Origin: Actinomycetes bacterium
GTDB taxonomy: Bacteria > Actinomycetota > Thermoleophilia > Solirubrobacterales > 70-9
Assembly (NCBI GenBank): GCA_016861045.1
Contig: BOKP01000004.1
Coordinates: 248,001 to 312,000, forward strand
DNA: 64,000 nucleotides
Reading direction: 5' to 3'
Part shown: positions 21,625-64,000 of the stretch, one piece after another
How positions within the stretch are numbered: position 1 is the stretch's first letter
How the letters are laid out: the number at the start of each line of letters is the position of its first letter
Notes under the pieces: generated by a model
The model's input: the letters and a program-made list of their open reading frames with translations, nothing else
Database searches by the model: none
What the model was told of the DNA's origin: nothing
Translations under genes and position numbers: made by a program

Positions 21625-21654
21625 TCGCTCGCCATCGGCAACAATACGCCGGCG

Positions 21655-23052: not shown

Positions 23053-24234
23053 GTGAGCGACGAGCGAGCGAGAGCGCGGGTCCCGCGCGACGCCGAGGAC
23101 GACTACACGCCCGCGGCCGCCGAGCGCCGGCGCGAGTTCCTCGCCGGGCGGGCCGGCGCCGGGCTCGGCCACGTCGGCAGCTTCTCCTTCGATCCCGCGG
23201 TCCTGCCGGGGAACATCGAGAGCTTCATCGGGGTCGCACAGGTGCCGATCGGGGTCGCCGGGCCGCTCCTGGTCGACGGCGAGCACGCCAAGGGGGAGTT
23301 CTACGTGCCGCTGGCGACGGCGGAGGGAACGCTGGTCGCGAGCTACAACCGCGGCATGAAGCTGCTCCACGAGGTCGGCGGCGTGAAGACGACGATCATG
23401 GACGACGCGATGCAGCGGGCGCCGTCGTTCCTGTTCGCCAGCGCCCGCGAGGCGCGTCAGTTCGGGGTCTGGCTCGACGAGCACTTCGGCGAGGTCAAGG
23501 CGGCGGCCGAGGCGACGACCTCCTCGGGCCGCCTTCGCGACGTCGAGCAGTACTCGGCCGGGCGGATCCTGTTCACGCGCTTCAACTACACGACCGGCGA
23601 CGCGGCCGGCCAGAACCTCTCCGGCAAGGCGACGGCGGCCGCCTGCGCCTGGATCCTCGCCAACTGCCCCGACGTCGAGCAGTTCTTCCTCGAGTCGAAC
23701 TTCGCGACCGACAAGAAGAGCTCGCAGGTGAACATGCTGCGGACCCGCGGCAAGCGGGTCGTCGCCGAGGCCGTGATCCCGAACGAGCTCGTCGCTCGCG
23801 TCATGCGCTCCGACACCGAGCTGATGTTCAAGGCCCGCCAGGTCTCCAACCTCGGCGGCTTCATGTCCGGCGTCAACAACAACGGGTCCCACTCCGCCAA
23901 CGGCATCACGGCGATGTTCATCGCCACCGGCCAGGACGTCGCCAACGTCGCGGAGTCGTCGGCCGCCTTCGTCTACGCCGAGCTCCGCGACGGCGGCGAC
24001 TACTACTACTCGGTGACGATCCCCTCCCTGATCGTCGCCACCTACGGCGGCGGCACCGGCCTGCCGACCCAGCGCGAGTGCCTCGAGCTGCTCGGATGCG
24101 CCGGCGCCGGCAAGGTCAACAAGCTCGCCGAGATCGTCGCCGCGACCGTCCTCTGCGGCGAGCTCTCGCTCGGCTCGGCGATCGTCGCCGAGGAGTGGGT
24201 CGCCGCCCACGACCTCTACGGGCGGAACCGCTGA
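23053..24234 (+). CDS. Divergent HMG-CoA reductase
   Basis: A 393-residue hydroxymethylglutaryl-CoA reductase, which yields mevalonate for isoprenoids or a related product. The GTG at 23053 replaces the far-upstream track start, which lies in antisense of the phosphatase gene. Catalytic residues can be placed: Glu in ATAEGTLVAS, Lys in TDKKSSQVN, Asp in GQDVANVAES and His near the end in AAHDLYGRN. GGGTGLPTQRECLELLG is also typical. The class I cofactor motif DAMGMNM is replaced by DAAGQNL, so this belongs to a divergent bacterial group and cofactor choice is uncertain. No other mevalonate genes are in the window. Confidence 0.87.
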   Translation: MSDERARARVPRDAEDDYTPAAAERRREFLAGRAGAGLGHVGSFSFDPAVLPGNIESFIGVAQVPIGVAGPLLVDGEHAKGEFYVPLATAEGTLVASYNRGMKLLHEVGGVKTTIMDDAMQRAPSFLFASAREARQFGVWLDEHFGEVKAAAEATTSSGRLRDVEQYSAGRILFTRFNYTTGDAAGQNLSGKATAAACAWILANCPDVEQFFLESNFATDKKSSQVNMLRTRGKRVVAEAVIPNELVARVMRSDTELMFKARQVSNLGGFMSGVNNNGSHSANGITAMFIATGQDVANVAESSAAFVYAELRDGGDYYYSVTIPSLIVATYGGGTGLPTQRECLELLGCAGAGKVNKLAEIVAATVLCGELSLGSAIVAEEWVAAHDLYGRNR

Positions 24235-24360: not shown

Positions 24361-24402
24361 CCCGGGTCATCTGGCCCACGCATGGCGCGGGCAGGATTAC
24401 CC
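24361..24402 (-). repeat. Structured ~41-bp dispersed repeat, copy C
   Basis: Read on the minus strand this is GGGTAATCCTG, an 8-bp hairpin with a CAT loop, then AGATGACCCGG. It matches copies A and B near 56.2 kb. The first bases contain the TAA stop of the membrane-protein gene. The outer arms GGGT-ATC and GAT-ACCC can also pair. The element lies between convergent genes, so it may act as a terminator. Confidence 0.7.
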
Positions 24403-25194
24403 ACCCTCGGGGCCGGGATCACGGCCGCGCGGGCGACGACCCGCCGCCGCCCGCTCCTCCCGCGCCGTGAGCTCGAAGTAGAGAGCGAGGACGGTCAGCG
24501 CGTAGAGCGGTGAGGCGAGGAGGTTGGCGGCGACCTCGGCGAGCCAGTTGCCGAGGTAGCCCTCGCCGAGGAGCGAGTGGCCGAGGGAGTCGCCGGCGGC
24601 CTCGAGGGTGGCCTGGAGGAAGGCGAGCGGGACCACGACGCCGGCGACGCGCCAGAAGTACGGGCGGACGAGGGTGCGGCTGCGGCGGAACGCGGCCCGG
24701 ACCCCGAGGCCCTCGATCTCGATCAGGGGCGCGATCAGGGCGAACCAGGTGGCGACGATGAAGCCGGGGACGATGAGGACTACGAGGCCGGCGGCGACGA
24801 GCGCGAAGAGCAGCAGGTCGGCCAGGATCAGGGTCCGGTAGGGGAGGCTGCGGGCGACGGCGACGATCCCGTGGCCGGCGCCGTGGCGGCGGCGCTGCTC
24901 GCCGGCGGCGGCGACGCCCGAGTAGAAGACGTCGCCGAGCAGTGGGATCGAGACCTGGGCGGTGATCAGGAGGACCAGCCCCGCGATCGCGGAGCCGTCC
25001 CAGTCATCGACCGCCTCGGTGTCGAAGGGATCGAGCGCGCTGACCAGCCCGATCACACCGAACAGGATCAGGCCGGTGCCGAGCAACAGCCTCCAGTTGT
25101 GGCGGTAGCCGTCGGCGACCTGGCGGAGGAGCGGCCGGAGGTGAAGGGGCCCGGGCGCCGCGCCCGGGTCCGCTCTGCCGCCGCTCGCTCGCAC
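24397..25194 (-). CDS. Multi-pass membrane protein of unknown function
   Basis: A ~265-residue integral membrane protein with about six hydrophobic segments, among them LLLGTGLILFGVIGLVSAL, AGLVLLITAQVSIPLLG and LILADLLLFALVAAGLVVLIV. The spacing and the PGFIVATWFALIAPLIEIEGLGVRAAFRRS segment recall the membrane domain of glycerophosphodiester phosphodiesterases and DUF975-like proteins, in which an amphipathic helix follows VIEGxGxxxAxxRS. No catalytic domain is attached. GTG start. The stop codon is embedded in repeat copy C. Confidence 0.7.
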   Translation of the reverse strand: MRASGGRADPGAAPGPLHLRPLLRQVADGYRHNWRLLLGTGLILFGVIGLVSALDPFDTEAVDDWDGSAIAGLVLLITAQVSIPLLGDVFYSGVAAAGEQRRRHGAGHGIVAVARSLPYRTLILADLLLFALVAAGLVVLIVPGFIVATWFALIAPLIEIEGLGVRAAFRRSRTLVRPYFWRVAGVVVPLAFLQATLEAAGDSLGHSLLGEGYLGNWLAEVAANLLASPLYALTVLALYFELTAREERAAAGRRPRGRDPGPEGG

Positions 25195-47861: not shown

Positions 47862-48979
47862 GCCGCACGAGCGAGATCCAGGGGGTGGGCAGCGTTCCGC
47901 ACGCCTACTACGAGCGCTCCGAGCCCCTGACGGGGGTGGTGCTCCTGCCGAGCCAGGAACGCCATGACCCCGGAGAGCATCCGGAGAACGTACGGCGCCT
48001 CCCGGGCGTGGTCGATCGGCTTCGAGATGCCCCCGAATGGGATCGGCTGTTCGTCCTCTACCCGCGTTACGCCAGGACCGAGGATGCCCTGCGGGTCCAC
48101 TCCGAGGGATTCGTCGAGATCCTCGAGAGCACCGGCGCGGACGCACCGCTCTGGCTCGACACCGACACGAGGGTGTCACGGGACAGCTACCCGAACTCCC
48201 TGCTGGCCGCCGGCGCGGCGCTTGCGGCGGTCGATGCGGTCGCGATGGAGGCCTACCACCGCCCCGACAGCCTGTTCGCGTTGACGCGGCCTCCGGGACA
48301 CCACACCGGCATCGACAAGGCGATGGGCTTCTGCCTGCTCAACAACGTCTCCATCGCGGCCCGTTACGCGCAGGCGACCTACGGGATCGAGCGGGTTGCC
48401 ATCCTCGATTGGGACGTTCACCACGGCAACGGCACCCAGGAGATCCATTACGCTGACCCGAGCGTCCTGTTCTGCTCGCTCCACGAGTGGCCCCTGTATC
48501 CGGGGACCGGCTGGGTGGACGAGACGGGCGCCGGCGACGGCACCGGTTTCAACATCAACATCCCGATGCCGACCGGCTCCGGAGATGTGGAGTACCTCGA
48601 GGCGCTCGATCGGGTCGCCCTTCCCGTCATCGAGGAGTTCCGCCCGGAGATCCTGCTGGTCTCGGCCGGCCAGGATTGCCATGCTGCGGATCCGCTCTGC
48701 GGGCAGCTCGTCTCGGCCTCCGGGTTCAAGGCGATGGCCACGCGGTCGGCGGAGCTCGCAAGGAGGCTCGGGATCGGGCTGGTGGTCATTCACGAAGGCG
48801 GGTACAACGTCTCGACCCTTCCGCTCCTCGACCGTTCCATAGTGGCCGGCCTCGGAGGATTCGAGGTCGAGGAGCCCGATCCGTTCGCCCCCCTGGATGC
48901 GGAGCCTCCCGGGGCCTGGGACGAGCGCCTCGAGTCCGTGATCGCTACCCATGCCCCACGCTGGGAAGCCTTGCGCTGA
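47858..48979 (+). CDS. Histone-deacetylase/acetylpolyamine amidohydrolase family protein
   Basis: A 373-residue zinc amidohydrolase of the arginase-deacetylase superfamily. Active-site motifs are RPPGHHTGIDKAMGFCLLNN, zinc-binding DWDVHHGNGTQ, SAGQDCHAADPL and catalytic-Tyr HEGGYN. Bacterial members remove acetyl groups from polyamines (APAH), acetoin-related AcuC substrates or lysine. Given the neighbouring ureohydrolase, permease and PotD-like protein, deacylation of a polyamine or acylated guanidine is the simplest idea. ATGA overlap with the dead nitrilase gene. Confidence 0.9.
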   Translation: MSRTSEIQGVGSVPHAYYERSEPLTGVVLLPSQERHDPGEHPENVRRLPGVVDRLRDAPEWDRLFVLYPRYARTEDALRVHSEGFVEILESTGADAPLWLDTDTRVSRDSYPNSLLAAGAALAAVDAVAMEAYHRPDSLFALTRPPGHHTGIDKAMGFCLLNNVSIAARYAQATYGIERVAILDWDVHHGNGTQEIHYADPSVLFCSLHEWPLYPGTGWVDETGAGDGTGFNINIPMPTGSGDVEYLEALDRVALPVIEEFRPEILLVSAGQDCHAADPLCGQLVSASGFKAMATRSAELARRLGIGLVVIHEGGYNVSTLPLLDRSIVAGLGGFEVEEPDPFAPLDAEPPGAWDERLESVIATHAPRWEALR

Positions 48980-48991
48980 TGGCGTGAGCCG

Positions 48992-49919
48992 ATGCGTGCG
49001 TTGACTTGGCCGGGCATGCCCGCCCGCGAGCCTCTCGCGGAGGCGGGTCGACGGCTGTCGTGCGAGGTGGACGTCGTGGAGATCGCTTCGAACGAGGATC
49101 TTGCGAACGAGATGTCGGGAGGTCGGTTCGACATCGTCTTCCCCTCCGACTACATGGTGGAACGGCTTCGCGGGGAGCGTGCGATCGTTCCTCTCGAACC
49201 CGGGGCCCTGCCTCTCGACCTGCTCGAGGACTGGGCCATCGACTGCGCTCACGACCCGGGGTGCCGATGGTCGGTTCCCTTCGCATACGGGACGACCGGG
49301 GTTCTGGCGGGCCCCGAGTGCCCTTCCACCGGATGGGATGCCCTGTTCGCGATCGACGGACCGGTCCTGATGCTCGACGAGGTGCGCGAGGTGTTCGGGG
49401 CCGCCCTGATCGCTTCGGGGCGGGATCCGAACGATCTCTCGCCCGCGGCGCTCCGCCTCGCACGGCGATGCCTGCTCGGCCGGATGCCTCTGATCGCCGC
49501 TTTCGACAGCGATGATTTCGTCGGGCCCGTCGCAACGGGACAGGTCGTTGCGGCCCATGCCTGGAGCGGGCCGGCTTCGGGGGCCGTGCGCGCCAATCGG
49601 AATCTGCGCTACTTCGTGCCCGAGGAGGGGGCGATCCTGTGGGTGACCAGCGCAGCGATACCGGCCGATGCGCCCGACCCGGAGCTGTCTACTTCCCTGC
49701 TGCGGGAGCTGATGGACCCGCGCCTGGCCGCCGGCACGACCGAGCGCAACGGCTACGCGACGCCGAATCGGGAGGCGCGCCGACTTCTCCCGCCCGCTCT
49801 CGACCGGGACCCGTCGCTGTTCCCGGACGAGGAGACGCTGAAGCGATGCGTGACGCTAACCGCCCAGGGGGAGGCGGAGGCGCGGCTCAGCGAGGAATGG
49901 AAGACCCTGACGGGAGCCG

Positions 49920-49927
<8 letters not shown>
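48992..49927 (+). CDS. PotD-like polyamine-binding-protein homologue without signal peptide
   Basis: A 311-residue protein with the fold of spermidine/putrescine-binding proteins: FDIVFPSDYMVERL, the hinge region WSVPFAYGTTGVLAG, and AYATPN-like GYATPNREARRLL near the end, typical of PotD and PotF. It starts straight at the first beta-strand (MRALTWPGM); the codon frame runs into the upstream stop four codons earlier, so there is no signal peptide or lipobox. No PotA, PotB or PotC genes are present. A cytosolic ligand-binding, buffering or sensing role is suggested. Its 3' end overlaps gltD (opposite strand) by 8 bp. Confidence 0.72.
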
Positions 49928-51338
<1,411 letters not shown>

Positions 51339-51353
51339 CCGCAGCCCGGGTCC

Positions 51354-54300
51354 CTACGCGAGGTTGATCGTCCGGCCCTTCGCCGGCGGGGTCGTGTGGG
51401 CGAGCGCGGCGCGGAAGCCGGGAGGGATCACGACCACGAACTCGCTCGCGGCCTCATCCCAGCGCTCGAGCAGCGCGGCGGCCACCGTCGAGGCGGTCCG
51501 CCGCTCGTGCTCGGCGATCAGGTCGCGGAGGAACTCGTTGCCGTCGGGATGGACCGGCTCGAACTCGACCATCCCCATGTTGCAGTTCGGCGGGAACTCG
51601 TCCCCGGGGTCCCAGATGCAGGCGATGCCGCCGCTCATCCCGGCCGCGAAGTTGCGGCCGGTCGGGCCGAGCACGACGACGCAGCCCCCGGTCATGTACT
51701 CGCAGCCGTGCTCGCCGATCCCCTCGACGACGGCGAGCGCCCCCGAGTTGCGGACGGCGAAGCGCTCGCCGGCGAGCCCGCGGAAGAAGGCCTTGCCGGC
51801 GGTGGCGCCGTAGAGGGCGACGTTGCCGGCGATCACGTTGCGCTCGGCGCGGAAGCCGGCCGTGCTCGCCGGCCGCACCGCGAGGACGCCGCCGGAGAGG
51901 CCCTTGCCCGCGTAGTCGTTGACGTCGCCGGCGACGTTGATCGTCACCCCGGGGGCGAGCCAGGCGCCGGCGCTCTGGCCCGCGGAGCCGGTCAGGTCGA
52001 AGCGGATCGTGTCCTCGGGCAGGCCGTCGGGACCGCGGGCGACGACGAGCGCGTTCGAGACGCGACCGCCGACGGCGAGGTCGATGTTGGTGACCGATGT
52101 CGCGTAGGAGACCGGATCGCCGCGCTCGATCGCCGCCGCCGCCGGGCCGAGCAGCTTGCGCTCGTCGAACGAGGCCCCGACCGGGTGCTCCTTGGCGTCG
52201 CCGGGCACGAACCCGCGCGGCGCGTTGCGGGCCCGCGCCGGGACCGCGAGCAGCGGGCTCAGGTCGAGCGAGCCCGCCTTCCAGTGATCGGTCCGGTCGC
52301 TCTGCCGCAGAAGCTCGGTGCGCCCGACGAGGTCGCTGAAGCGGCGCACGCCGAGCGCCGCCATCAGCCCCCGCGCCTCCTCCGCCACGAGCGCCAGGTA
52401 GTTGATGACGTGCTCGGGCTGACCCGAGAAGCGCGCCCGCAGCTCCGGATCCTGGGTCGCGACGCCGACCGGGCAGGTGTTGAGGTGGCAGACGCGCATC
52501 ATGATGCAGCCGGTGGCGATCAGCGGGGCCGTCGAGAGCCCGAGCTCGTCGGCGCCGAGGAGGCCGCCGACGACGATGTCGCGCCCGGTCCGCATCTGCC
52601 CGTCGGTCTGGAGCACCACCCTGGTCCGGAGGCCGCTATCGAGCAGCGCCTGCTGGGTCTCGGCGAGGCCGATCTCCCAGGGGACGCCGGCCCCCTGGAT
52701 CGAGGAGAGCGGCGATGCGCCGGTGCCGCCGTCGTGGCCGGCGATGACGACGTGGTCGGCGCCGGCCTTGACGCAGCCGACGGCGACCGTGCCCACCCCG
52801 GACTCGGCCGCGAGCTTGACCGATACCCCGGCGCGCGGGTTCGCCGCGCGGAGGTCGTAGATGAGCTGCTTGAGGTCCTCGATCGAGTAGATGTCGTGGT
52901 GCGGCGGCGGCGAGATCAGCTCGGTCCCGGGCAGCGCATAGCGCAGCGCCCCGATGTACTCGTCGACCTTGTGGCCGGGGAGCTGGCCGCCCTCGCCCGG
53001 CTTCGCGCCCTGGGCGATCTTGATCTGGATCTGGTCGGCGCGGGAGAGGTACTCGACGTCGACCCCGAAGCGCCCGGAGGCGACCTGGCGGATCCGCGAG
53101 CGCCGCTCGTCGCCGTTCGGGTCGGGCGTGTTGCGGCGGCGGTCCTCGCCGCCCTCGCCGCTGTTGGAGAGGGCGCCGAGCCGGTTCATCGCGATCGCGA
53201 GCGTCTCGTGCGCCTCCGGCGACAGCGCGCCGAGGCTCATCGCGCCGGTCGAGAACCGCCGCATGATCTCCGCCGCCGGCTCGACCTCCTCGATCGGGAC
53301 CGGATCGCCGGGCTCGACGAGCTCGAGGAGGCCGCGCAGCAGCGCCCTGCCCGCGTTCTCGTCGTCGACCCGGCGCCGGAACTCCTCGTAGGACTCGGGG
53401 CTGCCGTCTTCGGCCCGGGCCGCCCGCTGCAGGGCGGCGATCGTCTCCGGGTCCCACATGTGCCGCTCGCCGTCGCGACGCCAGCGGTAGACGCCGCCCT
53501 GGGGCAGCAGCCGTTCGCTGTCGGCCGCGAGCCGCGCCTCCTCGACGTGCTCGGGCAGGGCCAGCCCGTGTGCCTCCGGGTAGGCGCGGGCGTGCCGGTC
53601 GAGCGCCTCGCGGGCGAGCTCGCCGATGCCGATGCCGCCGAGCCGCGACGGGGTGCCGGTGAAGTGCGCGTCGACCACGCCCTGGTCGATGCCGACGATC
53701 TCGAAGATCTGGGCGCCGCGGTAGGAGCGGATCGTCGCGATCCCGATCTTCGAGAGGATCTTCAGAAGGCCCTTGCCGATCGCGGCGATCGCGAGCTCGT
53801 TGGCGTCGGCGAGCGGGCCGTCGAGGCCGACGGTCGGCTCGTCGAGCATCGTCATCGTCTCCAGCATCAGGTACGGGTTGACCGCCGTCGCGCCGTAGCC
53901 GATCAGCGCCGCCAGGTGGTGGGTCTCGCGCGGCTCGCCGGACTCGACGACGAGGGCCGCCCGCAGCCGCGTCCCCTTCAGGACGAGCGCGTGGTGGACC
54001 GTCGAGCAGGCGAGCAGCGACGGGATCGGGACCCGGTCGCGGCTCGTCGCGCGGTCGCTGAGCACGAGCAGGGTGGCCCCGTCCTCGATCGCGGTGACCG
54101 CCTCGGCGCGGATCCGCTCCAGCGCCGCCGCGAGGCCGTCCTCGCCGCCGTCGAGCGGCCAGGTGATGTCGATCGTCGTGCCGTCGAGCGCGTTGTGGGG
54201 GTTGCGGCGCAGCCGCTCGAGCTCGAAGTCGGTGAGGATCGGCTGCGCGAGCTCGACGTGGCTGACGATCTGGGGTTCGTCGCTGAGCAGGTTGCCCTGC

Positions 54301-55964
54301 GGTCCGATGTCGGTGCGGAGGCTCATCACGCACTGCTCGCGGACCGAGTCGATAGCCGGGTTGGTGACCTGGGCGAAGCGCTGCTTGAAGTAGCTGTAGA
54401 GCGAGGGCCGCTGGTCGGAGAAGACCGCCAGAGCGAGGTCGTTGCCCATCGAGCCGGTCGGCTCGCGGCCGTCGCGGAGCAGCGGCGCGAGGATCGTCCG
54501 CAGGTCCTCCTGGGTGTAGCCGAACGCGAGCTGGCGCTTGAGCAGCGGCTCGACCGGCTCGATCGTCGCCATCGGGTCGGGCAGCTGGCGGACGCCGAGC
54601 TTGCCCTCCGCGTACCACTCGCCGTAGGGGCGGGCCGAGGCGACCGCGAGCTCGGGCTCGCCATCGGTGCTGACGAGGCCCGTGTCGAGATCGACGACGA
54701 AGAGCTGGGCCGGCTCGAGCCGGCCCATCCGGGCGATCTTGCTCGGCGTCGTCGTGAAGATGCCCGACTCGGAGCCGAGGCAGACCCAGCCGTCCCGCGT
54801 GATCGTCCAGCGCCCCGGCCGCAGCCCGTTGCGGTCGAGCATGGCGCCGAGCCTGCGGCCGTCGCTGAAGGCGATCGCTGCCGGGCCGTCCCAGGGCTCG
54901 ACCAGGCGCGAGTGATAGCGGTAGAAGCCCTCGAGCTCGGCCGGCACGTCCTCGCGGCCCTCCCAGGCGGCCGGGATCATCATCATCATCGCGTGCTCGG
55001 GCGAGCGGCCGCCGAGCACCATCAGCTCGAAGGCGCGGTCGAAGGCCGCCGAGTCGGAGACGCCCTCGTCGATCAGCGGCAGGCAGTCGGCGAGGTCGCG
55101 GCCGAAGGCCCCGGAGGAGAGCACCGCCTCGCGGGCCCGCATCCAGTTGACGTTGCCGAGGAGCGTGTTGATCTCGCCGTTGTGGGCGATCATCCGCAGC
55201 GGCTGCGCCAGCTCCCAGCTCGGCGCCGTGTTCGTCGAGAACCGCGAGTGGACGATCGCGAAGCGGCTGAGCAGCGACAGGTCGCGCAGGTCGGGGTAGA
55301 ACTGCGGCAGCTGCGGCGCCGTCAGCATGCCCTTGTAGACGATCGTCCGGCACGACATGCTCGGGAACGAGACGTCCCGGCCACATTCGCGCTCGGCTCG
55401 CCGGCGGACGACGAAGAGGCTGCGGTCGAAGTCCTCGGCGCTCGCCACGCTCGCCCCGGCCTCGATGAAGAGCTGGCTGATCCGCGGCGCGGACTCGCGC
55501 GCCAGCCGACCGCAGGACGTCTCGTCGACTGGGACCTGGCGCCAGCCGACCACCCTGTGGCCGGCCTCGGCGACGAGCTCGCCGATCCGGCGCTGGATCC
55601 GCTCGGTGCCGCCGGTCGAGTCGCGGCGGAGGAAGCACATCGCGACCGCGAGCCTGCCGGGACCGGGGAGGACGACGGGCCGGGTGTCGATCTCGGCGGT
55701 GCGCGAGCGGAAGAACTCGTGCGGGAGCTCGAACATGATCCCGGCGCCGTCGCCGGTGGACTCGTCGGCGCCCGCCGCGCCGCGGTGCTCGAGCCGGTCG
55801 AGGGCGACCAGCCCGCGGTCGATCGTCTCGTGGATCGCCTTGCCGTCGAGCCGCGCGACGCAGGCGACCCCGCAGCCGTCGCGGAACGACGACGGGTCGT
55901 GCAGGCCGCCGAAGCCGATCCCGGCCGGTCCGGCGGATGGGGCGCTGTCGGTGCTGCGGGTCAT
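51354..55964 (-). CDS. gltB: Glutamate synthase large subunit
   Basis: A ~1536-residue GltB. The ATG at 55964 (MTRSTDS) is chosen because the further 78 residues of the track ORF run through tandem repeats. A ~30-residue propeptide precedes the glutaminase nucleophile Cys in RDGCGVACVAR. The central domain, the FMN/synthase domain (IKIAQGAKPGEGGQLPG) and the [3Fe-4S] cysteines in CIMMRVCHLNTCPVG follow, then the C-terminal GXGXG beta-helix. The antisense ORF of 2064 residues on the plus strand is a GC-driven shadow of this gene. Regulation may involve the repeats upstream. Confidence 0.96.
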   Translation of the reverse strand: MTRSTDSAPSAGPAGIGFGGLHDPSSFRDGCGVACVARLDGKAIHETIDRGLVALDRLEHRGAAGADESTGDGAGIMFELPHEFFRSRTAEIDTRPVVLPGPGRLAVAMCFLRRDSTGGTERIQRRIGELVAEAGHRVVGWRQVPVDETSCGRLARESAPRISQLFIEAGASVASAEDFDRSLFVVRRRAERECGRDVSFPSMSCRTIVYKGMLTAPQLPQFYPDLRDLSLLSRFAIVHSRFSTNTAPSWELAQPLRMIAHNGEINTLLGNVNWMRAREAVLSSGAFGRDLADCLPLIDEGVSDSAAFDRAFELMVLGGRSPEHAMMMMIPAAWEGREDVPAELEGFYRYHSRLVEPWDGPAAIAFSDGRRLGAMLDRNGLRPGRWTITRDGWVCLGSESGIFTTTPSKIARMGRLEPAQLFVVDLDTGLVSTDGEPELAVASARPYGEWYAEGKLGVRQLPDPMATIEPVEPLLKRQLAFGYTQEDLRTILAPLLRDGREPTGSMGNDLALAVFSDQRPSLYSYFKQRFAQVTNPAIDSVREQCVMSLRTDIGPQGNLLSDEPQIVSHVELAQPILTDFELERLRRNPHNALDGTTIDITWPLDGGEDGLAAALERIRAEAVTAIEDGATLLVLSDRATSRDRVPIPSLLACSTVHHALVLKGTRLRAALVVESGEPRETHHLAALIGYGATAVNPYLMLETMTMLDEPTVGLDGPLADANELAIAAIGKGLLKILSKIGIATIRSYRGAQIFEIVGIDQGVVDAHFTGTPSRLGGIGIGELAREALDRHARAYPEAHGLALPEHVEEARLAADSERLLPQGGVYRWRRDGERHMWDPETIAALQRAARAEDGSPESYEEFRRRVDDENAGRALLRGLLELVEPGDPVPIEEVEPAAEIMRRFSTGAMSLGALSPEAHETLAIAMNRLGALSNSGEGGEDRRRNTPDPNGDERRSRIRQVASGRFGVDVEYLSRADQIQIKIAQGAKPGEGGQLPGHKVDEYIGALRYALPGTELISPPPHHDIYSIEDLKQLIYDLRAANPRAGVSVKLAAESGVGTVAVGCVKAGADHVVIAGHDGGTGASPLSSIQGAGVPWEIGLAETQQALLDSGLRTRVVLQTDGQMRTGRDIVVGGLLGADELGLSTAPLIATGCIMMRVCHLNTCPVGVATQDPELRARFSGQPEHVINYLALVAEEARGLMAALGVRRFSDLVGRTELLRQSDRTDHWKAGSLDLSPLLAVPARARNAPRGFVPGDAKEHPVGASFDERKLLGPAAAAIERGDPVSYATSVTNIDLAVGGRVSNALVVARGPDGLPEDTIRFDLTGSAGQSAGAWLAPGVTINVAGDVNDYAGKGLSGGVLAVRPASTAGFRAERNVIAGNVALYGATAGKAFFRGLAGERFAVRNSGALAVVEGIGEHGCEYMTGGCVVVLGPTGRNFAAGMSGGIACIWDPGDEFPPNCNMGMVEFEPVHPDGNEFLRDLIAEHERRTASTVAAALLERWDEAASEFVVVIPPGFRAALAHTTPPAKGRTINLA

Positions 55965-55980
55965 CAGAAGCGTCGGCTGC

Positions 55981-56049
55981 GGATGGTCTGGGTGTCGGGT
56001 TGCGGGTGGTCTGGGGGTCGGGTTGCTGCGGGTGGTCTGAGGGTCCGAG
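55981..56049. repeat. Three tandem ~20-bp imperfect repeats just upstream of gltB
   Basis: GGATGGTCTGGGTGTCGGGT, GGGTGGTCTGGGGGTCGGGT and GGGTGGTCTGAGGGTCCGAG follow each other with TGC or TGCTGC spacers, starting 17 bp upstream of the gltB start. They lie in the leader or promoter of gltB. They could be regulator sites or a slippage-prone minisatellite. The remaining bases to the ABC ATPase stop at 56321 hold only the two structured repeats. Confidence 0.7.
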
Positions 56050-56208
56050 AGGTGGCCGCGAGCCGCGCGCGGTCGGTGCCGGCGCACGCGAGAGCCCCTC
56101 GGCTGCCCGGCAAGCGGCCTGCGCGGCGGTCCCGAAAGGGTACGGCAACCCGGACCGGCCCGTTCGGTGGGCGGGGGCCGACCGGCAGGCGCCGCCAACC
56201 CCGCACCC

Positions 56209-56249
56209 GGGTAGTCCTGACCCCGCCATGCGGGGTTGAGATGACCCAG
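56209..56249 (+). repeat. Structured ~41-bp dispersed repeat, copy A
   Basis: GGGTAGTCCTG, then the perfect inverted repeat ACCCCGC-CAT-GCGGGGT, then TGAGATGACCCAG. It matches copy B 22 bp away and copy C at 24.4 kb. Outer arms (GGGT..GTC with GAT..ACCC) also pair, with a wobble, giving a two-stem hairpin. Confidence 0.75.
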
Positions 56250-56270
56250 CGCGTCCCGAGCCCCGGCCTG

Positions 56271-56310
56271 GGGAATCCTGGCCCTCCTGTACGGGGTTGA
56301 GATGACCCGG
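56271..56310 (+). repeat. Structured ~41-bp dispersed repeat, copy B
   Basis: GGGAATCCTGGCCCTCCTGT followed by ACGGGGTTGAGATGACCCGG. The right half is identical to copy A over 17 bases; the inner stem is weaker, keeping the CCC/GGG core. It ends 11 bp before the stop codon of the ABC ATPase gene. Confidence 0.7.
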
Positions 56311-56320
56311 TTGGCGGGCG

Positions 56321-57073
56321 CTACGCGCGGCCGGCCTCGAGGAGGCGGCGGAGGAAACGCTGGGTCTCGGGGTCCCGGGGGTCCTCGAGGACCTGCTCGG
56401 GCGGGCCGACCTCGACGAGGCGTCCCTCGTGCAGGAACCCGACCTTGTCGGCGACCTCGCGGGCGAAGCCCATCTCGTGGGTCGCGATCAGCATCGTCAC
56501 CCCCTCCTGCTTGAGGTCGCGGACCGCGCGCAGGACCTCGCCGACGAGCTCGGGGTCGAGCGCGCTCGTCACCTCGTCGAGCAGCATCGCCCGCGGCCGG
56601 GTCGCGAACGCGCGGGCGATCGCGACGCGCTGCTGCTGGCCGCCGGAGAGGTTGGACGGGCTCTCCTCCTCGCGGCCCTCGAGGCCGAAGCGGGCGAGCG
56701 TCGCCCGCGCCGCCTCGCGCGCGTCCTCGCGGCCGAGGCCGTGGGCGCGGGTGATCCCGAGGGTCACGTTGTCGATCACGTTCAGGTGCGGGAACAGGTT
56801 GTAGGCCTGGAAGACGAAGCCGAGGCGGCGTCGAACCGCGACCGGGTCGGCGGCGGGGTCGGTGATCACCTCGCCGTCGAGGAGGATGTCGCCGTCGTCG
56901 ATCTCGATAAGGAGGTCGACGCAGCGCAGCAGGGTCGACTTGCCCGATCCCGACGCCCCGATCACCGCGACCGCCTCGTGCTCGGCGATCTCGAGGTCGA
57001 TGCCGCGCAGCACGCCGCGATCGCCGAAGGCCTTGGTGACGCCCTCGATCGCGATCACCGGGGTCCCGCTCAC
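56321..57073 (-). CDS. Polar amino acid ABC transporter ATP-binding protein
   Basis: A 250-residue GlnQ-type ATPase. Walker A GASGSGKSTLLRC, Q-loop FVFQAYNLFPHLNVIDN, signature LSGGQQQRVAIARAF and Walker B AMLLDEVTSALDPEL are intact. GTG/ATG start overlaps the permease stop. It energises uptake through the adjoining permease and lipoprotein. Placement next to gltBD suggests glutamine or glutamate as cargo, which is inference. Confidence 0.93.
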   Translation of the reverse strand: MSGTPVIAIEGVTKAFGDRGVLRGIDLEIAEHEAVAVIGASGSGKSTLLRCVDLLIEIDDGDILLDGEVITDPAADPVAVRRRLGFVFQAYNLFPHLNVIDNVTLGITRAHGLGREDAREAARATLARFGLEGREEESPSNLSGGQQQRVAIARAFATRPRAMLLDEVTSALDPELVGEVLRAVRDLKQEGVTMLIATHEMGFAREVADKVGFLHEGRLVEVGPPEQVLEDPRDPETQRFLRRLLEAGRA

Positions 57074-57930
57074 CGGACCCGTCCCCGGTCCCAGCGGTCG
57101 AGCATCCGCGCCAGCGGGATCGTCACCGCCATGTAGAGGACCGCGGCGCAGAGCAGCGGCGTGTAGTTGAAGTCGGTCGAGGCCATGATCTGCGCGACCT
57201 GGAACGCCTCGCCGGTGACGCCGATGATCGCGATCAGCGCGACGTCCTTCTGCAGCGAGATGAAGTCGTTGAGCAGCGGCGGGCCGACGTTGCGGACGGC
57301 CTGCGGGATGACCACGTGGCGCATCGCCTGCCGCTCGGTCAGCCCGATCGCGAGCGCCGCGTCGCGCTGGCCGGGATGGACCGAGCGCAGCCCCGCGCGG
57401 TAGACCTCGGAGACGTAGGCGCCGTAGGAGAGGGTGAGGGCGATCGCGCCGAGCACGACCGGCTCGGTCGGCAGCCAGGAGAGCGTCGAGCTGCCCTCGG
57501 CATCGGAGTTGGCCAACGCCGGGATCCCGAAGCCGATGAGATAGACGAGCAGGATCGTCGGGATCCCGCGGAAGATGTCGGCGTAGAGAATCGCGAGGAG
57601 CCGGAGCGGGAACATCGCCGCCGCCCGCGAGGTCCGGATCAGGGCGACCAGGAGCCCGAGGGCGAGCACGGCGACCTCGACGATCAGGAAGACCCTGATG
57701 TCGAGCCAGAACGCCTTGGCGACATCGGGGAACGACTCCTTGAAGACGGTCGCGTTGAAGAAGGTCTCGCGGACAGCCGGCCAGCCGCTGCTGGTCAGGA
57801 TCAGCGCCGTGAGGCCGCCGATGACGAGGACCGTCGAGGCCGCCGCGATCGCGAAGCCGCGACGGTCGCGGCGGCGCCTGGCCGCCGCCCGCTCGGCTCG
57901 CCGATCGGGCCTGGCCGCCTCCGCTTCCAC
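57070..57930 (-). CDS. Polar amino acid ABC transporter permease
   Basis: A 286-residue HisM/GlnP-type permease. A basic N-terminal tail and one helix (GFAIAAASTVLVIGGLTALIL) precede an extracellular loop and the core permease, with LADIFRGIPTILLVYL-like YADIFRGIPTILLVYLIGFG and the coupling EAA loop (EVYRAGLRSVHPGQRDAALAIGL). Five to six membrane spans in all. Only one permease gene is present, so a homodimer is likely. Confidence 0.92.
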   Translation of the reverse strand: MEAEAARPDRRAERAAARRRRDRRGFAIAAASTVLVIGGLTALILTSSGWPAVRETFFNATVFKESFPDVAKAFWLDIRVFLIVEVAVLALGLLVALIRTSRAAAMFPLRLLAILYADIFRGIPTILLVYLIGFGIPALANSDAEGSSTLSWLPTEPVVLGAIALTLSYGAYVSEVYRAGLRSVHPGQRDAALAIGLTERQAMRHVVIPQAVRNVGPPLLNDFISLQKDVALIAIIGVTGEAFQVAQIMASTDFNYTPLLCAAVLYMAVTIPLARMLDRWDRGRVR

Positions 57931-57963
57931 CTACTCAGATCGTCACGCGGCGCGCCGCCCCGG

Positions 57964-58848
57964 CTACTGCAGCTCTTCGACGCCGCCGACGCTGTTGATC
58001 CACTTGTCCTGGATCCGGTCGAGCTCGCCCGAGCCCTCCAGCTCCTCGATCGCCGCCGACACGCAGCCGGTCAGCGACGAGTCCTTGGCCAGCAGCGCTC
58101 CCCACTCGTCGCCGCCGGGCGCCGGGAACTCGCCGACGATCGCCGCGTCGGGGACCTGCACCGCTGTCAGGTAGAGCGCGGTCGGGGTGTCGACGACGAC
58201 GGCATCGACCTGGCCCTGCTTGATGGCGCTGACCACGTCGTTCGAGTTCTGGAACACCCGCGGCTCGTCATCGGGCTGGATCACGTCGTTGACCGCGTCG
58301 AGGCTCGTCGTCCCGATCTGGACGCCGAACGTCGCGCCCTTGAGCTCCTCGAGGGACGTCGCGCCCGCGAACTCGGAGTCCTTGAGGGTCACCACCGCCT
58401 GGTCGGCCGTGTAGTAGGGGGTCGAGAAGTCGACCTGCTGGGCGCGCTTCGGCGTGATCGAGATCTGGTTGATGTCGAAATCGAAGTCCTTCGGGCCCGG
58501 CGCGTAGGAGGAGTTGAACGGCACCACGGTCCATTCGACCTGGTCCTCGCCGAACCCGAGCCGGTCGGCGATCGCGTAGGCGACCGCGCTCTCGAAGCCC
58601 CTGCCGTTGGAGGGGTCGTTGTCCTCGAAGTAGGGCGGATAGGCGGGCTTGTCGGTGCCGATCGTCAACGTCCCCGGCTGCCGCGTGTCGAGCGTCTCGG
58701 GGGTGCATTCGTCGAGCGACGCGGTCGCCGCCGTCCCGTCGGCCGAAGTCGCCACGGTCGAGTCATCCCCGCCACAGGCGGCGAGGGCTACGGCGGCGCC
58801 GATCAGGCATGAGAGCAGCAGGAACTTGAGTGTGCGGGGCTGATACAC
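57964..58848 (-). CDS. Polar amino acid ABC transporter substrate-binding lipoprotein
   Basis: A 294-residue family 3 solute-binding protein. The GTG at 58848 follows CCGGAGG; the track start at 58944 is too early. The signal peptide ends in lipobox LAAC followed by GGDD, so it is membrane-tethered. Binding-domain signatures include TIGTDKPAYPPY, GFESAVAYAIADRLG, FDINQISITPKRAQQVDFS and the hinge FGVQIGTTSLDAV. Specificity is probably for a polar amino acid. First gene of the minus-strand transporter operon. Confidence 0.93.
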   Translation of the reverse strand: MYQPRTLKFLLLSCLIGAAVALAACGGDDSTVATSADGTAATASLDECTPETLDTRQPGTLTIGTDKPAYPPYFEDNDPSNGRGFESAVAYAIADRLGFGEDQVEWTVVPFNSSYAPGPKDFDFDINQISITPKRAQQVDFSTPYYTADQAVVTLKDSEFAGATSLEELKGATFGVQIGTTSLDAVNDVIQPDDEPRVFQNSNDVVSAIKQGQVDAVVVDTPTALYLTAVQVPDAAIVGEFPAPGGDEWGALLAKDSSLTGCVSAAIEELEGSGELDRIQDKWINSVGGVEELQ

Positions 58849-58886
58849 GACGAACCTCCGGCGGCAACGTCCGATTGGGAACGCGG

Positions 58887-58903
58887 GCATCCTACGCGGA
58901 TGC
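58887..58903. promoter_or_regulatory. Palindrome over the promoter of the amino acid transporter operon
   Basis: GCATCC-TACGC-GGATGC is an exact 6-bp inverted repeat. On the minus strand it contains TAGGAT (58889-58894), a -10 box about 40 bp before the binding-protein start. A repressor bound here would block the promoter. The regulator is unknown. Confidence 0.4.
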
Positions 58904-58978
58904 GGGCGATCGGCGTCGCCGGCGCCGCATCGTGTCCGCCGCACACACCGGCGGTCGCGGCCGTGCGAGATTGCCGGG

Positions 58979-59782
58979 ATGCCACCCGTCCGTCATCGGA
59001 GCCTCGCCGCCGACACCGCCGTGACCGCCGCCGGCGACGGCCGCTGGCGGGGAACGATCACGCCCGAGTGGTTCGGGCCTCCCGGACCCAACGGCGGCTT
59101 CATCGCGGCGCTGGTCCTGCGCGCGATCCGGGCCGAGGTCGGCGATCGGTCCCGATATCCCCGGTCGCTCACGCTCCACTACCTGCGCCCGCCGGTCGCC
59201 GGCGCGGCCGAGCTTGCGGTGACGGTCGAGCGCTCGGGCCGGTCGGCGAGCACCTGCTCGGCCCGGTTGATCCAGGACGGCCGCGATTTGACGCTCGCGC
59301 TCTGCGTGCTCACGACCGATTACGAGCCGGCCCTGAGCTGGGCCGCGGAGCCGCCACCGGCGCCGCCTCCAGATCGCGTCGAGCCGCTCGCGGCCGTATC
59401 CGGCGTCCCGCCGATCTTCCACCAGCTCGAGACGCGCAACGTCTTCGGGCCGCCGCCCTTCAGCGGCGGCGAGGAGCCCGTGTCGGGCGGCTGGCTTCGG
59501 GCCCGCTCCGGCGAGGAGATGAGCCCGGAGCTGATCGCCCTCTACACCGACGCCTGGTGGCCGGCCCCGTTCAGCTTCATGACCGACTTCGCTCCCGCCC
59601 CGACCCTCGAGCTGACGATCCACTTCCGCGCCCGTCCCGACCCGGCCGACCCGATGGCGCTGGTCCGGTTCCGCGCCGAGGCGTCGATCGACGGCCTCTT
59701 CGACGAGCAGGGCGAGGTCTGGGACCGTCACGGGCGGCTGCTGGCGCAGTCGCGCCAGCTGGCGCTGCTGCGGAGAGGATGA
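58979..59782 (+). CDS. Acyl-CoA thioesterase-like double hot-dog protein
   Basis: A 267-residue protein of the TesB/4HBT_3 type. The first hot-dog domain holds FGPPGPNGGFIAALVLRAI and SLTLHYLRPPVAG; the second holds MTDFAPAPTLELTIHFRA and the conserved end WDRHGRLLAQSRQLALL. Such enzymes hydrolyse acyl-CoA to free acid and CoA. It lies before two acyl-CoA dehydrogenases and a thiolase, in keeping with fatty-acid turnover. A 9-bp hairpin follows its stop. Confidence 0.85.
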   Translation: MPPVRHRSLAADTAVTAAGDGRWRGTITPEWFGPPGPNGGFIAALVLRAIRAEVGDRSRYPRSLTLHYLRPPVAGAAELAVTVERSGRSASTCSARLIQDGRDLTLALCVLTTDYEPALSWAAEPPPAPPPDRVEPLAAVSGVPPIFHQLETRNVFGPPPFSGGEEPVSGGWLRARSGEEMSPELIALYTDAWWPAPFSFMTDFAPAPTLELTIHFRARPDPADPMALVRFRAEASIDGLFDEQGEVWDRHGRLLAQSRQLALLRRG

Positions 59783-60153
59783 CCCCGACCGAATGCTCCG
59801 CCGGCCGTCCGCTTCGGTCGGCTCCGGTGGCCACGCACGGCGGCACGAGGATCACGGCGCCGCTCACGAGGCGCCGGTTCCGCAGCGCCGCCCTTGAGTT
59901 GGCATCCCCCGTCCGCTTCCGTCGGCTTGCCGGTCGACCGACGGTTCGCCCGGATCACGGCAGCCCCGTTCGGGCTGCCGGAGGCGCTGCCGCTGATCGC
60001 TGCGCCGCCCGCCGGCGGGCGCGACCGTTGACGCCCGGTCAACTGCGAATCGGTGCTCTCGGGGGGACCCGATTCGCACCTCAACGGCGAAGCGGCGGAC
60101 GGCCGGCGCCATTGGCCGATGTGCCACCGTTCGGTGTTAGCCTTGCGCGGGCG
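59783..60153. other. 371-bp non-coding region with several strong inverted repeats
   Basis: No credible gene is seen. CCGACCGAA/TTCGGTCGG (59785-59821) is a likely terminator of the thioesterase gene. CGGCAGCCC-CGTTC-GGGCTGCCG (59958-59980) is a tight 9-bp hairpin. GTTGAC/GTCAAC (60027-60043) and TGCGAATCGG/CCGATTCGCA (60044-60078) are adjacent palindromes suitable as operators for the acyl-CoA dehydrogenase operon. Confidence 0.6.
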
Positions 60154-61464
60154 ATGAACCTGACCGAGCGGGGAACGAGCGCCGGGCTGCGCGCCCTGAG
60201 CCGGATGGCGAGCTCCGGGCTCCTCGACCGCCTCGGCGTTCGCGAGCACGCCGAGCGCCTCGTCCATCGCGGCACCCGGGACGGCTTTCGGGCCGCGAAC
60301 GCCGCGGGCCGCCGCTTCGCCGCCGCGCGAAGGCTCGCCCGGCCGGCCCGGCAGCAGCGGCCGCGGCCGGCGACGGCTTTCGACCTCGAGCCGACCGAGG
60401 AGCAGGCGATGCTGATCGACTCCTTCGGCGACTACGCCGCGAACGTGCTCCGCCCCGCCGCCCGGGAGGCAGATGCCGCCTGCTCGGCGCCGGAGGAGAT
60501 CCTCGCCCGGAGCGCCGAGCTCGGGATCGCCGTTCTCGGCGTTCCCGAGGAGCTCGGCGGCGCCGTCGCCGAGCGCTCCGCGGTCACCTCTGCCCTCGTC
60601 ACCGAGGCGCTGGCGAGCGGCGACATGGGGCTCGCCTTCGCCGCCCTCGCCCCCGCCGCGGTCAGCACCGCGCTCGGACTCTGGGGGGACGCCGACCAGC
60701 AGGCCACCTACCTGCCGTCGTTCGCCGGCGACGAGGTCCCGGCGGCGGCGCTGGCGATCCACGAGCCCGGCGCCGTGTTCGATCCGTTCGCGCTCGCGAC
60801 GACGGCCCGCGCCGACGGTGACGGGTTCGTGATCGACGGCGTCAAGGCCCTGGTGCCGCGTGCCGACGCGGCAGAGCTGTTCGTGATCGCCGCCGCCCTC
60901 GAGGGCGAGGGGCCGACGCTGTTCGTCGTCGAGGCCGCGACCGGCGGCCTCGGGGTCAGGGACGAGCCAGCGATCGGCCTTCGCGCGGCGGCGACCGGAA
61001 GGGTTCGGCTCGACGGGGTTGGGGTCGGCCCCGGCGCCCGCCTCGGCGGCCCCGGCGAGTACGCCGACTGCGTCCGCCTCGGCCGGATCGCCTGGGCCGC
61101 GATGTCCGTCGGGACCTCCCAGGGCGCGCTCGACTTCCTGATCCCCTACGTCAACGAGCGCCGGGCCTTCGGCGAGCCGATCAGCCACCGTCAGGCGGTC
61201 GCCTTCAACATGTCCGACCTCGCGATCGAGATCGAGGGGATGCGGCTCGCGACCTACCGGGCGGCGGCGCTCGCCGACCGGGGTGCGGACCTGGCCCGCC
61301 CGGCGGCGATCGCCCGCCGGCTCGCGGCGGCGAAGGGCATGAAGGTCGGCTCCGACGCCGTCGGCCTGCTCGGCGGGCACGGCTACGTCAAAGAGCACCC
61401 GGTCGAGCGCTGGTACCGTGACCTCCGCGCCGCCGGCGTCCTCGAGGGGGGCCTGCTGGTCTGA
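60154..61464 (+). CDS. Acyl-CoA dehydrogenase, shorter partner of a pair
   Basis: A 436-residue flavoprotein of the acyl-CoA dehydrogenase family. I start at the ATG at 60154; the track ORF extends far upstream through non-coding DNA. Residues 1-75 are an Arg-rich extension. The FAD/substrate domains follow with ERRAFGEPISHRQAVAF and LLGGHGYVKEHPVERWYRD. It ends at LEGGLLV, just where the family normally has the catalytic Glu and another ~25 residues (EGTxxI). The Glu is kept but the tail is gone. It is fused by TGATG to a second dehydrogenase gene, as in heteromeric FadE pairs of actinobacteria. Confidence 0.87.
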   Translation: MNLTERGTSAGLRALSRMASSGLLDRLGVREHAERLVHRGTRDGFRAANAAGRRFAAARRLARPARQQRPRPATAFDLEPTEEQAMLIDSFGDYAANVLRPAAREADAACSAPEEILARSAELGIAVLGVPEELGGAVAERSAVTSALVTEALASGDMGLAFAALAPAAVSTALGLWGDADQQATYLPSFAGDEVPAAALAIHEPGAVFDPFALATTARADGDGFVIDGVKALVPRADAAELFVIAAALEGEGPTLFVVEAATGGLGVRDEPAIGLRAAATGRVRLDGVGVGPGARLGGPGEYADCVRLGRIAWAAMSVGTSQGALDFLIPYVNERRAFGEPISHRQAVAFNMSDLAIEIEGMRLATYRAAALADRGADLARPAAIARRLAAAKGMKVGSDAVGLLGGHGYVKEHPVERWYRDLRAAGVLEGGLLV

Positions 61465-62678
61465 TGGCGATCGACCTCGAGGTCCCGCGGAGGTTCGAGC
61501 AGCTGGTCGAGCAGGCGCACATGGTCGCCGCCGAGGTGCTGCGCCCGATCTCGCGCAAGTACGACCTCGCCGAGCACGAGTACCCGAAGGAGCTCGACAT
61601 GCTCGCCGCGATGATCGACGGGCTCGAGGAGGGCGGCTCCTCGAGCGGCGCCGGCGCCGCCGGCGTCAGCAGGGCGAGCGGGAACGACGACGACGGCAAC
61701 CGCAACGGCTCCAACCTGGCGTCGGTGCTGTCGGTGATGGAGATGTGCTGGGGGGACGTCGGACTGCTCCTGTCGCTGCCGCGGCAGGGGCTCGGCAACT
61801 CGGCTATCGCCGCGGTCGCCGACGAGGACCAGAAGCGCCGCTTCGCCGGCAAGTGGGCGGCGATGGCGATCACCGAGCCGGAGGCGGGATCCGACTCCGC
61901 GGCGATCCGGACGACCGCGGTCCTCGACGGCGACGAGTACGTGCTCAACGGCGAGAAGATCTACGTGACCGCGGGCGAGCGCGCCGAGCTCGTCGTCGTC
62001 TGGGCGAGCCTCGATCCGGACCGGGGGCGGGCGGCGATCAAGTCGTTCGTGGTTCCGCGCTCGAATCCCGGGCTGAAGCTCGACCGGCTCGAGCACAAGC
62101 TCGGGATCCGCGCCTCCGACACGGCGGCGTTCATCCTCGACGACTGCCGGGTGCCGAAGGAGAACCTGCTCGGCAGCCCCGAGATCGACACCGAGAAGAG
62201 CTTCGGAGGGGCGATGCGGACCTTCGACAGCACGCGGCCGCTCGTCGCGGCGATGGCGGTCGGGTTGACCCGCGCCTGCCTCGAGCGAACGGGCGAGCTG
62301 CTCGCCGAGGCCGGCATCGAGCCCGACCCCGACCGCCCGGCGGGCCGGCAGAGCGCCGCCGCGGCGGCGCTGCTCGAGATCGAGGCCGACTACGAGGCGG
62401 CGCGCCTGCTGACCATGGAGGCCGCCTGGATGGCCGACAACGGCAAGCCGAACTCGCTCCACGCCTCTTACGCGAAGGCGAAGGCGGGGCGGACCTGCGT
62501 CGACGCCGCCCTCCGCTGCGTCGAGCTTTGCGGCGCCGCCGGCCTCGGCGAGGACGAGCTGCTCGAGAAGTGGGCCCGCGATGCGAAGATCCTCGACATC
62601 TTCGAGGGCACCCAGAACATCCAGCTCCTGATCATCGCCCGCCAGCTCCTCGGGCTGAGCTCGGCGGAGCTGAAGTAA
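61464..62678 (+). CDS. Acyl-CoA dehydrogenase, complete partner
   Basis: A 404-residue acyl-CoA dehydrogenase that introduces the first double bond in beta-oxidation. MAITEPEAGSDSAAIRTTA marks the FAD/substrate site and the catalytic Glu lies in DIFEGTQNIQLLIIARQLL near residue 385. The N-terminal domain has an unusual Gly/Ser/Asn-rich insertion (GGSSSGAGAAG..GNDDDGNRNGSN) near residue 55. The start overlaps the previous stop. An electron-transfer flavoprotein would accept its electrons but is not in the window. Confidence 0.92.
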   Translation: MAIDLEVPRRFEQLVEQAHMVAAEVLRPISRKYDLAEHEYPKELDMLAAMIDGLEEGGSSSGAGAAGVSRASGNDDDGNRNGSNLASVLSVMEMCWGDVGLLLSLPRQGLGNSAIAAVADEDQKRRFAGKWAAMAITEPEAGSDSAAIRTTAVLDGDEYVLNGEKIYVTAGERAELVVVWASLDPDRGRAAIKSFVVPRSNPGLKLDRLEHKLGIRASDTAAFILDDCRVPKENLLGSPEIDTEKSFGGAMRTFDSTRPLVAAMAVGLTRACLERTGELLAEAGIEPDPDRPAGRQSAAAAALLEIEADYEAARLLTMEAAWMADNGKPNSLHASYAKAKAGRTCVDAALRCVELCGAAGLGEDELLEKWARDAKILDIFEGTQNIQLLIIARQLLGLSSAELK

Positions 62679-62797
62679 CAGGTCCGGGCCCGGATGGGAC
62701 CGATGACGGAGCGGCGCGCCGAAGCGGTGGGAGACGGCCGGCCGAGGCCGGTGGACGGCGGACGGATGCCCGTCACGCTCGCCGCGGTTCCCCGGCG

Positions 62798-64000
62798 ATG
62801 AGCCCGTCGCCGCGACAGGCCGTGGTCCTCGCCTCGAACCGGATCCCGTTCGCGCGCCAGAGCGGACCATACGCGCGAGCGTCGAACCAGGACATGCTGA
62901 CGGCGGCGCTCGACGGCCTCGTCGATCGCGCCGGGATCGCGGGCGAGCGGCTCGGGGAGGTGGCCGGCGGCGCCGTGCTCAAGCACAGCCGCGACTTCAA
63001 CCTCACGCGCGAGTCCCTGCTGGGGACCCGGATCGCGCCCGAGACGCCGGCCTGCGATGTTGGCCAGGCCTGCGGGACGGGGCTCGAAGCGGCGATCCTC
63101 GTCGCCAACAAGATCGCCCTCGGCCAGGTCGAGAGCGGCATCGCCTGCGGCGTCGACTCCACCTCCGACGCTCCGATCGCGATCAACGAGGGCCTGCGGG
63201 GGGTCCTGCTCGAGATCAACGCGGCGCGGTCGAACCTCGACCGGGTCCGGGCGCTCGGGAAGGTCCGGCCGGGGCAGATCGTGCCGGAGATCCCGCGCAA
63301 CGAGGAGCCGCGCACCGGGATGTCGATGGGCGAGCACGCGGCGATCATGGCCCGCGAGTGGGGGATCGCCCGCGAGCCCCAGGACGAGCTCGCCGCCGTC
63401 AGCCATCGCAACCTCGCCGCCGCCTACGACGGCGGGTTCGAGGACGACCTCGTCACCGCCTACCTCGGCCTCGAGCGCGACCACAACCTCCGTCCCGACT
63501 CGACCCCGGAGCAGCTCGCGAAGCTGGATCCCGTCTTTGGCGGCGCCGAAGGGACGATGACCGCGGGCAACTCGACGCCGCTCAGCGACGGCGCCTCGGC
63601 GGTCCTGCTCGGCACCGAGGAGTGGGGGGCCGAGCGCGGGCTCGCCCCGCTCGCCCGCCTCGTCGACGCCGAGACCGCCGCGATCGACCACGTCGGCGCC
63701 CGCGAGGGCCTGCTGATGGCGCCCGCCTACGCCGTGCCGCGGCTGCTGGCGCGCCGCGGGCTCGAGCTGCAGGACTTCGACCTCTACGAGATCCACGAGG
63801 CCTTCGCCTCGCAGGTCCTCTGCACGCTCGCCGCGTGGGAGGACCCCGTGTTCTGCCGCGAGCGACTCGGGCGTGACGGGCCGCTCGGGCCGATCGACCG
63901 CGACAGGCTCAACGTCCGCGGCGGCTCGCTCGCCGCCGGGCACCCGTTCGCGGCGACCGGCGGCCGGATCGTCGGCAACCTCGCGAAGCTGCTCAGCGCC
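62798..64000 (+). CDS. Thiolase, FadI-like acetyl-CoA C-acyltransferase (3' truncated by window)
   Basis: The first 401 residues of a thiolase; the ORF track misses it because it runs off the end. The frame from the ATG at 62798 is open to 64000. VLKHSRDFNLTRESLLG and the nucleophile Cys in VGQACGTGLEAAI are typical of FadI. HEAFAS and GGSLAAGHPFAATGGRI supply catalytic His residues; the C-terminal Cys motif would lie beyond the window. It cleaves 3-ketoacyl-CoA to acetyl-CoA and follows the dehydrogenases by 119 bp on the same strand. A FadJ-like partner is expected next. Confidence 0.9.
   Translation, partial: MSPSPRQAVVLASNRIPFARQSGPYARASNQDMLTAALDGLVDRAGIAGERLGEVAGGAVLKHSRDFNLTRESLLGTRIAPETPACDVGQACGTGLEAAILVANKIALGQVESGIACGVDSTSDAPIAINEGLRGVLLEINAARSNLDRVRALGKVRPGQIVPEIPRNEEPRTGMSMGEHAAIMAREWGIAREPQDELAAVSHRNLAAAYDGGFEDDLVTAYLGLERDHNLRPDSTPEQLAKLDPVFGGAEGTMTAGNSTPLSDGASAVLLGTEEWGAERGLAPLARLVDAETAAIDHVGAREGLLMAPAYAVPRLLARRGLELQDFDLYEIHEAFASQVLCTLAAWEDPVFCRERLGRDGPLGPIDRDRLNVRGGSLAAGHPFAATGGRIVGNLAKLLSA

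Follow-up and report, generated by a model that had tools for sequence, protein, structure and literature searches.

A 39-bp extragenic palindromic repeat, probably REP-like, in two sequence families and often paired at fixed periods

What is the short palindrome that recurs at gene borders in this stretch of DNA? The window, by which we mean the whole 64,000-bp stretch analyzed (C4:248001-312000), comes from a 2.70-Mb, five-contig, high-GC genome that is 97% complete. The first-pass annotation had described three copies of a structured repeat in it and held that pairing, rather than sequence, was conserved among them. All three copies are present (Table 1). Each is exactly 39 bp rather than the ~41 bp annotated, and the second copy of the pair begins at 56270, one base before the position originally assigned (56271). 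This copy reads GGGGAATCCTG and opens GGGG, not GGGT; the motif GGGTARTCCTG, thought to be common to the copies, thus holds except at its position 4. A strict pattern for the repeat matched the window twice, compared to 0.00 matches expected from shuffled windows, and had 5 matches genome-wide compared to 0 for a reversed-pattern control. These controls exclude chance as the source of the repeat. Convergent genes flank the single copy, and the TAA at 24397-24399 within it is the stop codon of the gene at 24397-25194. The nearby HMG-CoA reductase-like gene has no match in either of two congeners, a possible gain or loss.

Table 1 Repeat copies in the window and the genes beside them (window coordinates)
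Feature	Position	Strand	Sequence	Remarks
Family A copy, first in head-to-tail pair	56209..56247	+	GGGTAGTCCTGACCCCGCCATGCGGGGTTGAGATGACCC	53.2 bits, E 8e-9
Spacer of the 56209/56270 pair, 22 bp	56248..56269	unstranded		no homology to other spacers
Family A copy, second in pair, period 61	56270..56308	+	GGGGAATCCTGGCCCTCCTGTACGGGGTTGAGATGACCC	43.2 bits
Family A single copy	24364..24402	-	GGGTAATCCTGCCCGCGCCATGCGTGGGCCAGATGACCC	
ABC-transporter ATP-binding protein gene	56321..57073	-		named from sequence; stop codon 12 bp from the 56209-56308 pair
Glutamate synthase large subunit gene	51354..55964	-		named from sequence; start 244 bp from the 56209-56308 pair
HMG-CoA reductase-like gene	23053..24234	+		named from sequence; end 129 bp before single copy

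The annotation had proposed a covariance model as a check for further copies. Such a model, built on 11 copies and combined with inspection, recovered 28 full-length copies of the window's repeat (family A) at 20 loci, every one 39 bp long; one extra copy, at C2:189420, has a 5-bp deletion. Similarly, a pattern free to vary from 32 to 52 bp in total length matched only at 39 bp. A weak model match led to a second family, B, which has 19 copies of 39 bp at 12 loci on C1, C2, and C4. Altogether, pattern and model searches yielded ~48 repeats of 39 bp in the genome, in two sequence families and at ~32 loci. This inventory and the gene positions bear out the annotation of a dispersed, palindromic, intergenic repeat at gene borders; the fixed length, the second family, and doublets with quantized spacing go beyond it.

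Family A has the consensus T-GGGTMATCYNGMCC-N12-GGKTRAGATGACCC-AGG. Its conserved part comprises ~14 bp at either end together with one or two adjoining bases (a T ahead of the repeat and A/G-G behind it), while the middle 12 bp are weakly conserved except for a central A/T. Family B reads GGGGCATTCTSAGCACCGTATGCGGCCGCGRAATGCCCC (ends GGGGCATT...AATGCCCC) and is more homogeneous than A (~88% identity between paired loci), suggesting that it is probably the younger family and A the older, diverged one. Relative to A, family B carries complementary replacements at positions 4/36 (T-A to G-C), 8/32 (C-G to T-A), and 13/27 (C-G to G-C), indicating that outer-arm complementarity was kept between the families. 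It is retained in the outer arms only, and several inner columns of B are unpaired in the register of A. These replacements amount to one change per position, and judged from sequence a DNA dyad fits them as well as an RNA hairpin. One copy, at C2:416221-416259 (GGGGCACTTTGACCACCGTATGCGGCGTTCAGATGCCCC), is intermediate between A and B. We also noted, on contig C4, 2-3 copies of what may be a third family of intergenic palindromes, GGTGAGRTGCRGATC...CCCGATTCGCACCTCACC (window 60037-60085, C4:86209-86247, and C4:373070-373120; loci L116 and L128).

Are deviations in one arm compensated in the other, as had been proposed? For the 28 family A copies, we compared the base pairs formed within one copy's two arms with those formed by arms drawn from different copies. 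The outer columns (1-8) had 190 within-copy pairs compared to 188.5+/-1.6 between copies, the middle columns (9-13) had 96 compared to 93.5+/-3.4, and the inner columns (14-18) had 83 compared to 80.4+/-4.2. The totals were 369 and 362.4+/-5.6, respectively (P 0.13, with a range of 0.13 to 0.3 across tests). Re-orienting the copies by their centers left this result unchanged. Consistent with it, arm likeness was 11.4/18 within one copy and 11.6/18 between different copies, and no covariation measure exceeded shuffles on 11 family A copies (75/500). Since pairing within copies equals pairing between them, the palindrome is a property of the consensus, and copies that deviate do so without compensation. 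We therefore reject covariation in family A and, with it, the claim that compensating changes conserve pairing within the family. The two pair changes on which the claim was built do exist between two of the window copies (A12-T28 to C12-G28 and C15-G25 to G15-T25); they are not general over the 28 copies. Likewise, the proposed outer-arm pairing holds as complementarity between families A and B, but not as compensation within family A. The original interpretation is thus partly supported, and a striking compensating pair between two copies may vanish once every copy is counted.

We next consider where the copies lie, using genes predicted with a custom finder based on codon usage. Family A loci, 20 in all, fall between tandem (12), convergent (4), and divergent (4) genes. 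In tandem gaps, family A copies lie near the upstream stop codon (median 0.11 of the way, 9/11, Wilcoxon P 0.002), typically 7-35 bp from it, whereas family B copies show no such closeness. We found no function common to the genes that flank the copies. At C1:1115682-1117787, a DUF559/Vsr-like endonuclease gene that immediately follows xerD has family B copies on both sides; nowhere else do copies of this family bracket a nuclease-type gene.

The many copies 7-35 bp after stop codons, including those between convergent genes, are what would be expected if the element acted at the 3' ends of mRNAs as an RNA hairpin, either a terminator or a 3' stabilizer. Single copies also fold, on one strand or the other, with energies of approximately -10 to -31 kcal/mol. 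However, in addition to the missing within-family compensation, no T-run that could provide a U-tract is found in the flanks of the copies, and a terminator scan of 48000-64000 flagged no copy, including both members of the 56209/56270 pair. Copies occupy just 9 of ~260 intergenic regions in the examined part of contig C4, and some lie between divergent genes. Finally, an Rfam scan of the window matched the repeat to no described family and returned only the tmRNA gene at 21257-21627 (RF00023, 95 bits). On balance, we consider it quite improbable that the element is primarily an RNA hairpin. A role at RNA 3' ends is possible as a by-product, with position as its sole positive support.

Of the ~32 loci, 15 consist of two same-family copies close together, with periods of 61-62 or 70-72 bp only. 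Family B doublets have periods of 61 bp (four) and 62 bp (three); those of family A have periods of 61 (two), 62 (one), 70 (one), and 72 bp (four). Copies less than 500 bp apart showed no other spacing. All family B pairs are direct repeats (identity of 35-39 of 39 in direct orientation compared to 18-23 inverted), as are the family A pairs apart from two in which orientation is undecidable. Identity is higher within pairs than between copies at separate loci in both family B (37.9/39 compared to 34.5) and family A (29.1/39 compared to 25.9), which indicates that doublets were formed or homogenized locally. Their spacers have a fixed length of 22-23 or 31-33 bp and are mostly unrelated, both to the spacers of other loci and to local flanks. 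Accordingly, simple tandem duplication fails for most doublets. A spacer-flank match is clear only at C1:795994, where the spacer of a 61-bp period consists of two local flanks (21/22), and is partial at C4:357208, where 18 bp of flank next to a single copy recur on its other side, 61 bp further along. Other tandem duplications bear no relation to the element: a local intergenic one at window 20353-20492 (C4:268353, period 101) and 26-bp repeats at C4:316010-316219 beside a family B pair.

Near-identical repeats at each locus, separated by unique spacers of fixed length, resemble miniature CRISPR-like arrays in which repeats are duplicated together with newly captured spacers. By contrast, loci hold at most two repeats, the spacers are too short, and the neighbors are housekeeping genes. 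Moreover, the spacer at C1:795994 derives from local flanks and is homologous to that at C1:1117687. We regard such arrays as a very remote prospect.

The two classes of period differ by roughly one turn of the helix (Rayleigh R 0.93, n=15, although the doublets may not all be independent). The fixed periods may reflect same-face protein contact or a fixed-size duplication step. The first of these belongs to a reading in which a nucleoid or regulatory host protein binds the 39-bp dyad as duplex DNA and the site is maintained for it, with two inverted ~13-bp half-sites at a fixed distance and neighboring sites facing the same side of the helix. Consistent with this idea, 28 of the 29 family A copies keep the fixed length despite their divergence, and the arms vary independently, without pairing compensation. 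The near-total lack of indels among diverged copies suggests a stronger constraint on length than a decaying mobile relic would be expected to show. A maintained binding site accounts for the fixed length and spacing; it does not account for the absence of the element from relatives, described below. Sites of a conserved host protein would not be expected to be missing from congeners and the order, nor would one genome be expected to hold two distinct families of them. In addition, the flanking genes share no function, and a 3'-end position is unusual for regulator sites. We judge a maintained binding site to be unlikely.

The strict family A pattern was absent from 60 relatives, including two congeners, with the exception of one match in a genome of the same order and a different family (G056), whose interior is unlike the element and which we take as chance. 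Family B was likewise absent from 60 relatives, including two congeners, in a pattern search. Among 232 genomes of the order, family A at 1e-4 was found in its own genome and in one other (G150), where the match lies inside a coding gene and is also taken as chance. The R1 search gave weak matches only, in two family members, and R2 gave only noise-level matches in relatives. The PEPCK 3' region illustrates this distribution: it holds a family A pair in the element's own genome and none in congener G001 or in the other relatives that were readable with the gene finder, G002 not being among these. A scan of genome contigs returned 13 single matches in unrelated taxa, which we take as chance, and viral contigs, plasmids, and phages had no matches. 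A de novo search of ~36 kb of congener non-coding DNA, of limited power, found no tandem palindromes of this type.

We then looked for an enzyme that could mobilize the element. A search with PF01797 detected no Y1/RAYT transposase or RAYT/IS200-type gene in the element's own genome, and controls were positive. XerD, encoded beside a family B copy (C1:1115682-1116644), is of the housekeeping type, indicating that its adjacency is coincidental, and the DUF559 gene between family B copies is unsupported as a mobilizer. To our knowledge, the GTAG group of REPs has a cognate RAYT (Y1_Tnp) and the CGTC group is without one. We know of no means by which RAYT-less palindromic repeats spread, a question that the CGTC REPs pose equally.

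Taken together, we think it reasonably probable that the repeat is a REP-like extragenic palindrome, is non-autonomous, and spread in one lineage. From sequence comparison, we infer both its mobility and a mobilizing enzyme. The 39-bp dyad would have spread in at least two waves, family A and then family B, the latter with the same length and architecture and with outer arms that had changed and were still complementary. Copying was presumably carried out by a transposase or recombinase that recognizes the dyad as a duplex or a single-strand hairpin. Copies would persist mainly just behind stop codons because insertion is tolerated there. At many loci, local copying would have added a second, head-to-tail unit at a period of 61-62 or 70-72 bp. 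An unlikely extension of this model is that a RAYT-less palindrome duplicates itself head-to-tail at its locus, with the geometry of the DNA helix setting the step at 61-62 or 70-72 bp. If so, the 39-bp unit would be replaced or homogenized as spacer DNA, either unrelated or local, is taken up, and a hypothetical recombinase would be amplifying repeats in a new way. With an old and a young family of identical architecture, near-identical doublets, and a fixed step, the means by which the element spreads could be tested by sequencing close strains.

How does this REP-like repeat compare with known systems? Like MITEs, it is short and non-autonomous and has inverted ends. However, it is very short for one, lacks a consistent short target-site duplication, and has no identified parent transposon with matching ends (the transposase search covered Y1_Tnp). 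With REPINs (Bertels and Rainey 2011, PMC3116915), it shares conserved inverted arms, a less conserved middle of fixed length, inferred mobility, and doublets at preferred distances, which are 71 and 110 bp in REPINs. Unlike REPINs, in which one REP is inverted relative to the other and compensatory changes have been reported to be common, the doublets here repeat a complete 39-bp palindrome in direct orientation, compensatory changes were undetected, and a RAYT was not found. Most REPs carry a GTAG or CGTC end tag, and head-to-tail dimers have been called negligible among CGTC REPs, which are mainly head-to-head (Di Nocera et al. 2013, PMC3733652). By contrast, no GTAG or CGTC consensus tag is present in the columns flanking the 28 family A copies or in family B flanks, doublets are head-to-tail where readable and have periods of 61-62 or 70-72 bp only, copy number is low for a REP, and the PF01797 search found no RAYT. 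In other respects the element resembles the GTAG and CGTC superfamilies (PMC3733652). Both are 20-40 bp imperfect palindromes that are extragenic and often species-specific, with several families per genome. Both are often found as dimers and cluster behind stop codons and between tandem or convergent genes, REPs favoring the upstream 3' end in tandem intergenic regions, and both can supply the stop codon itself.
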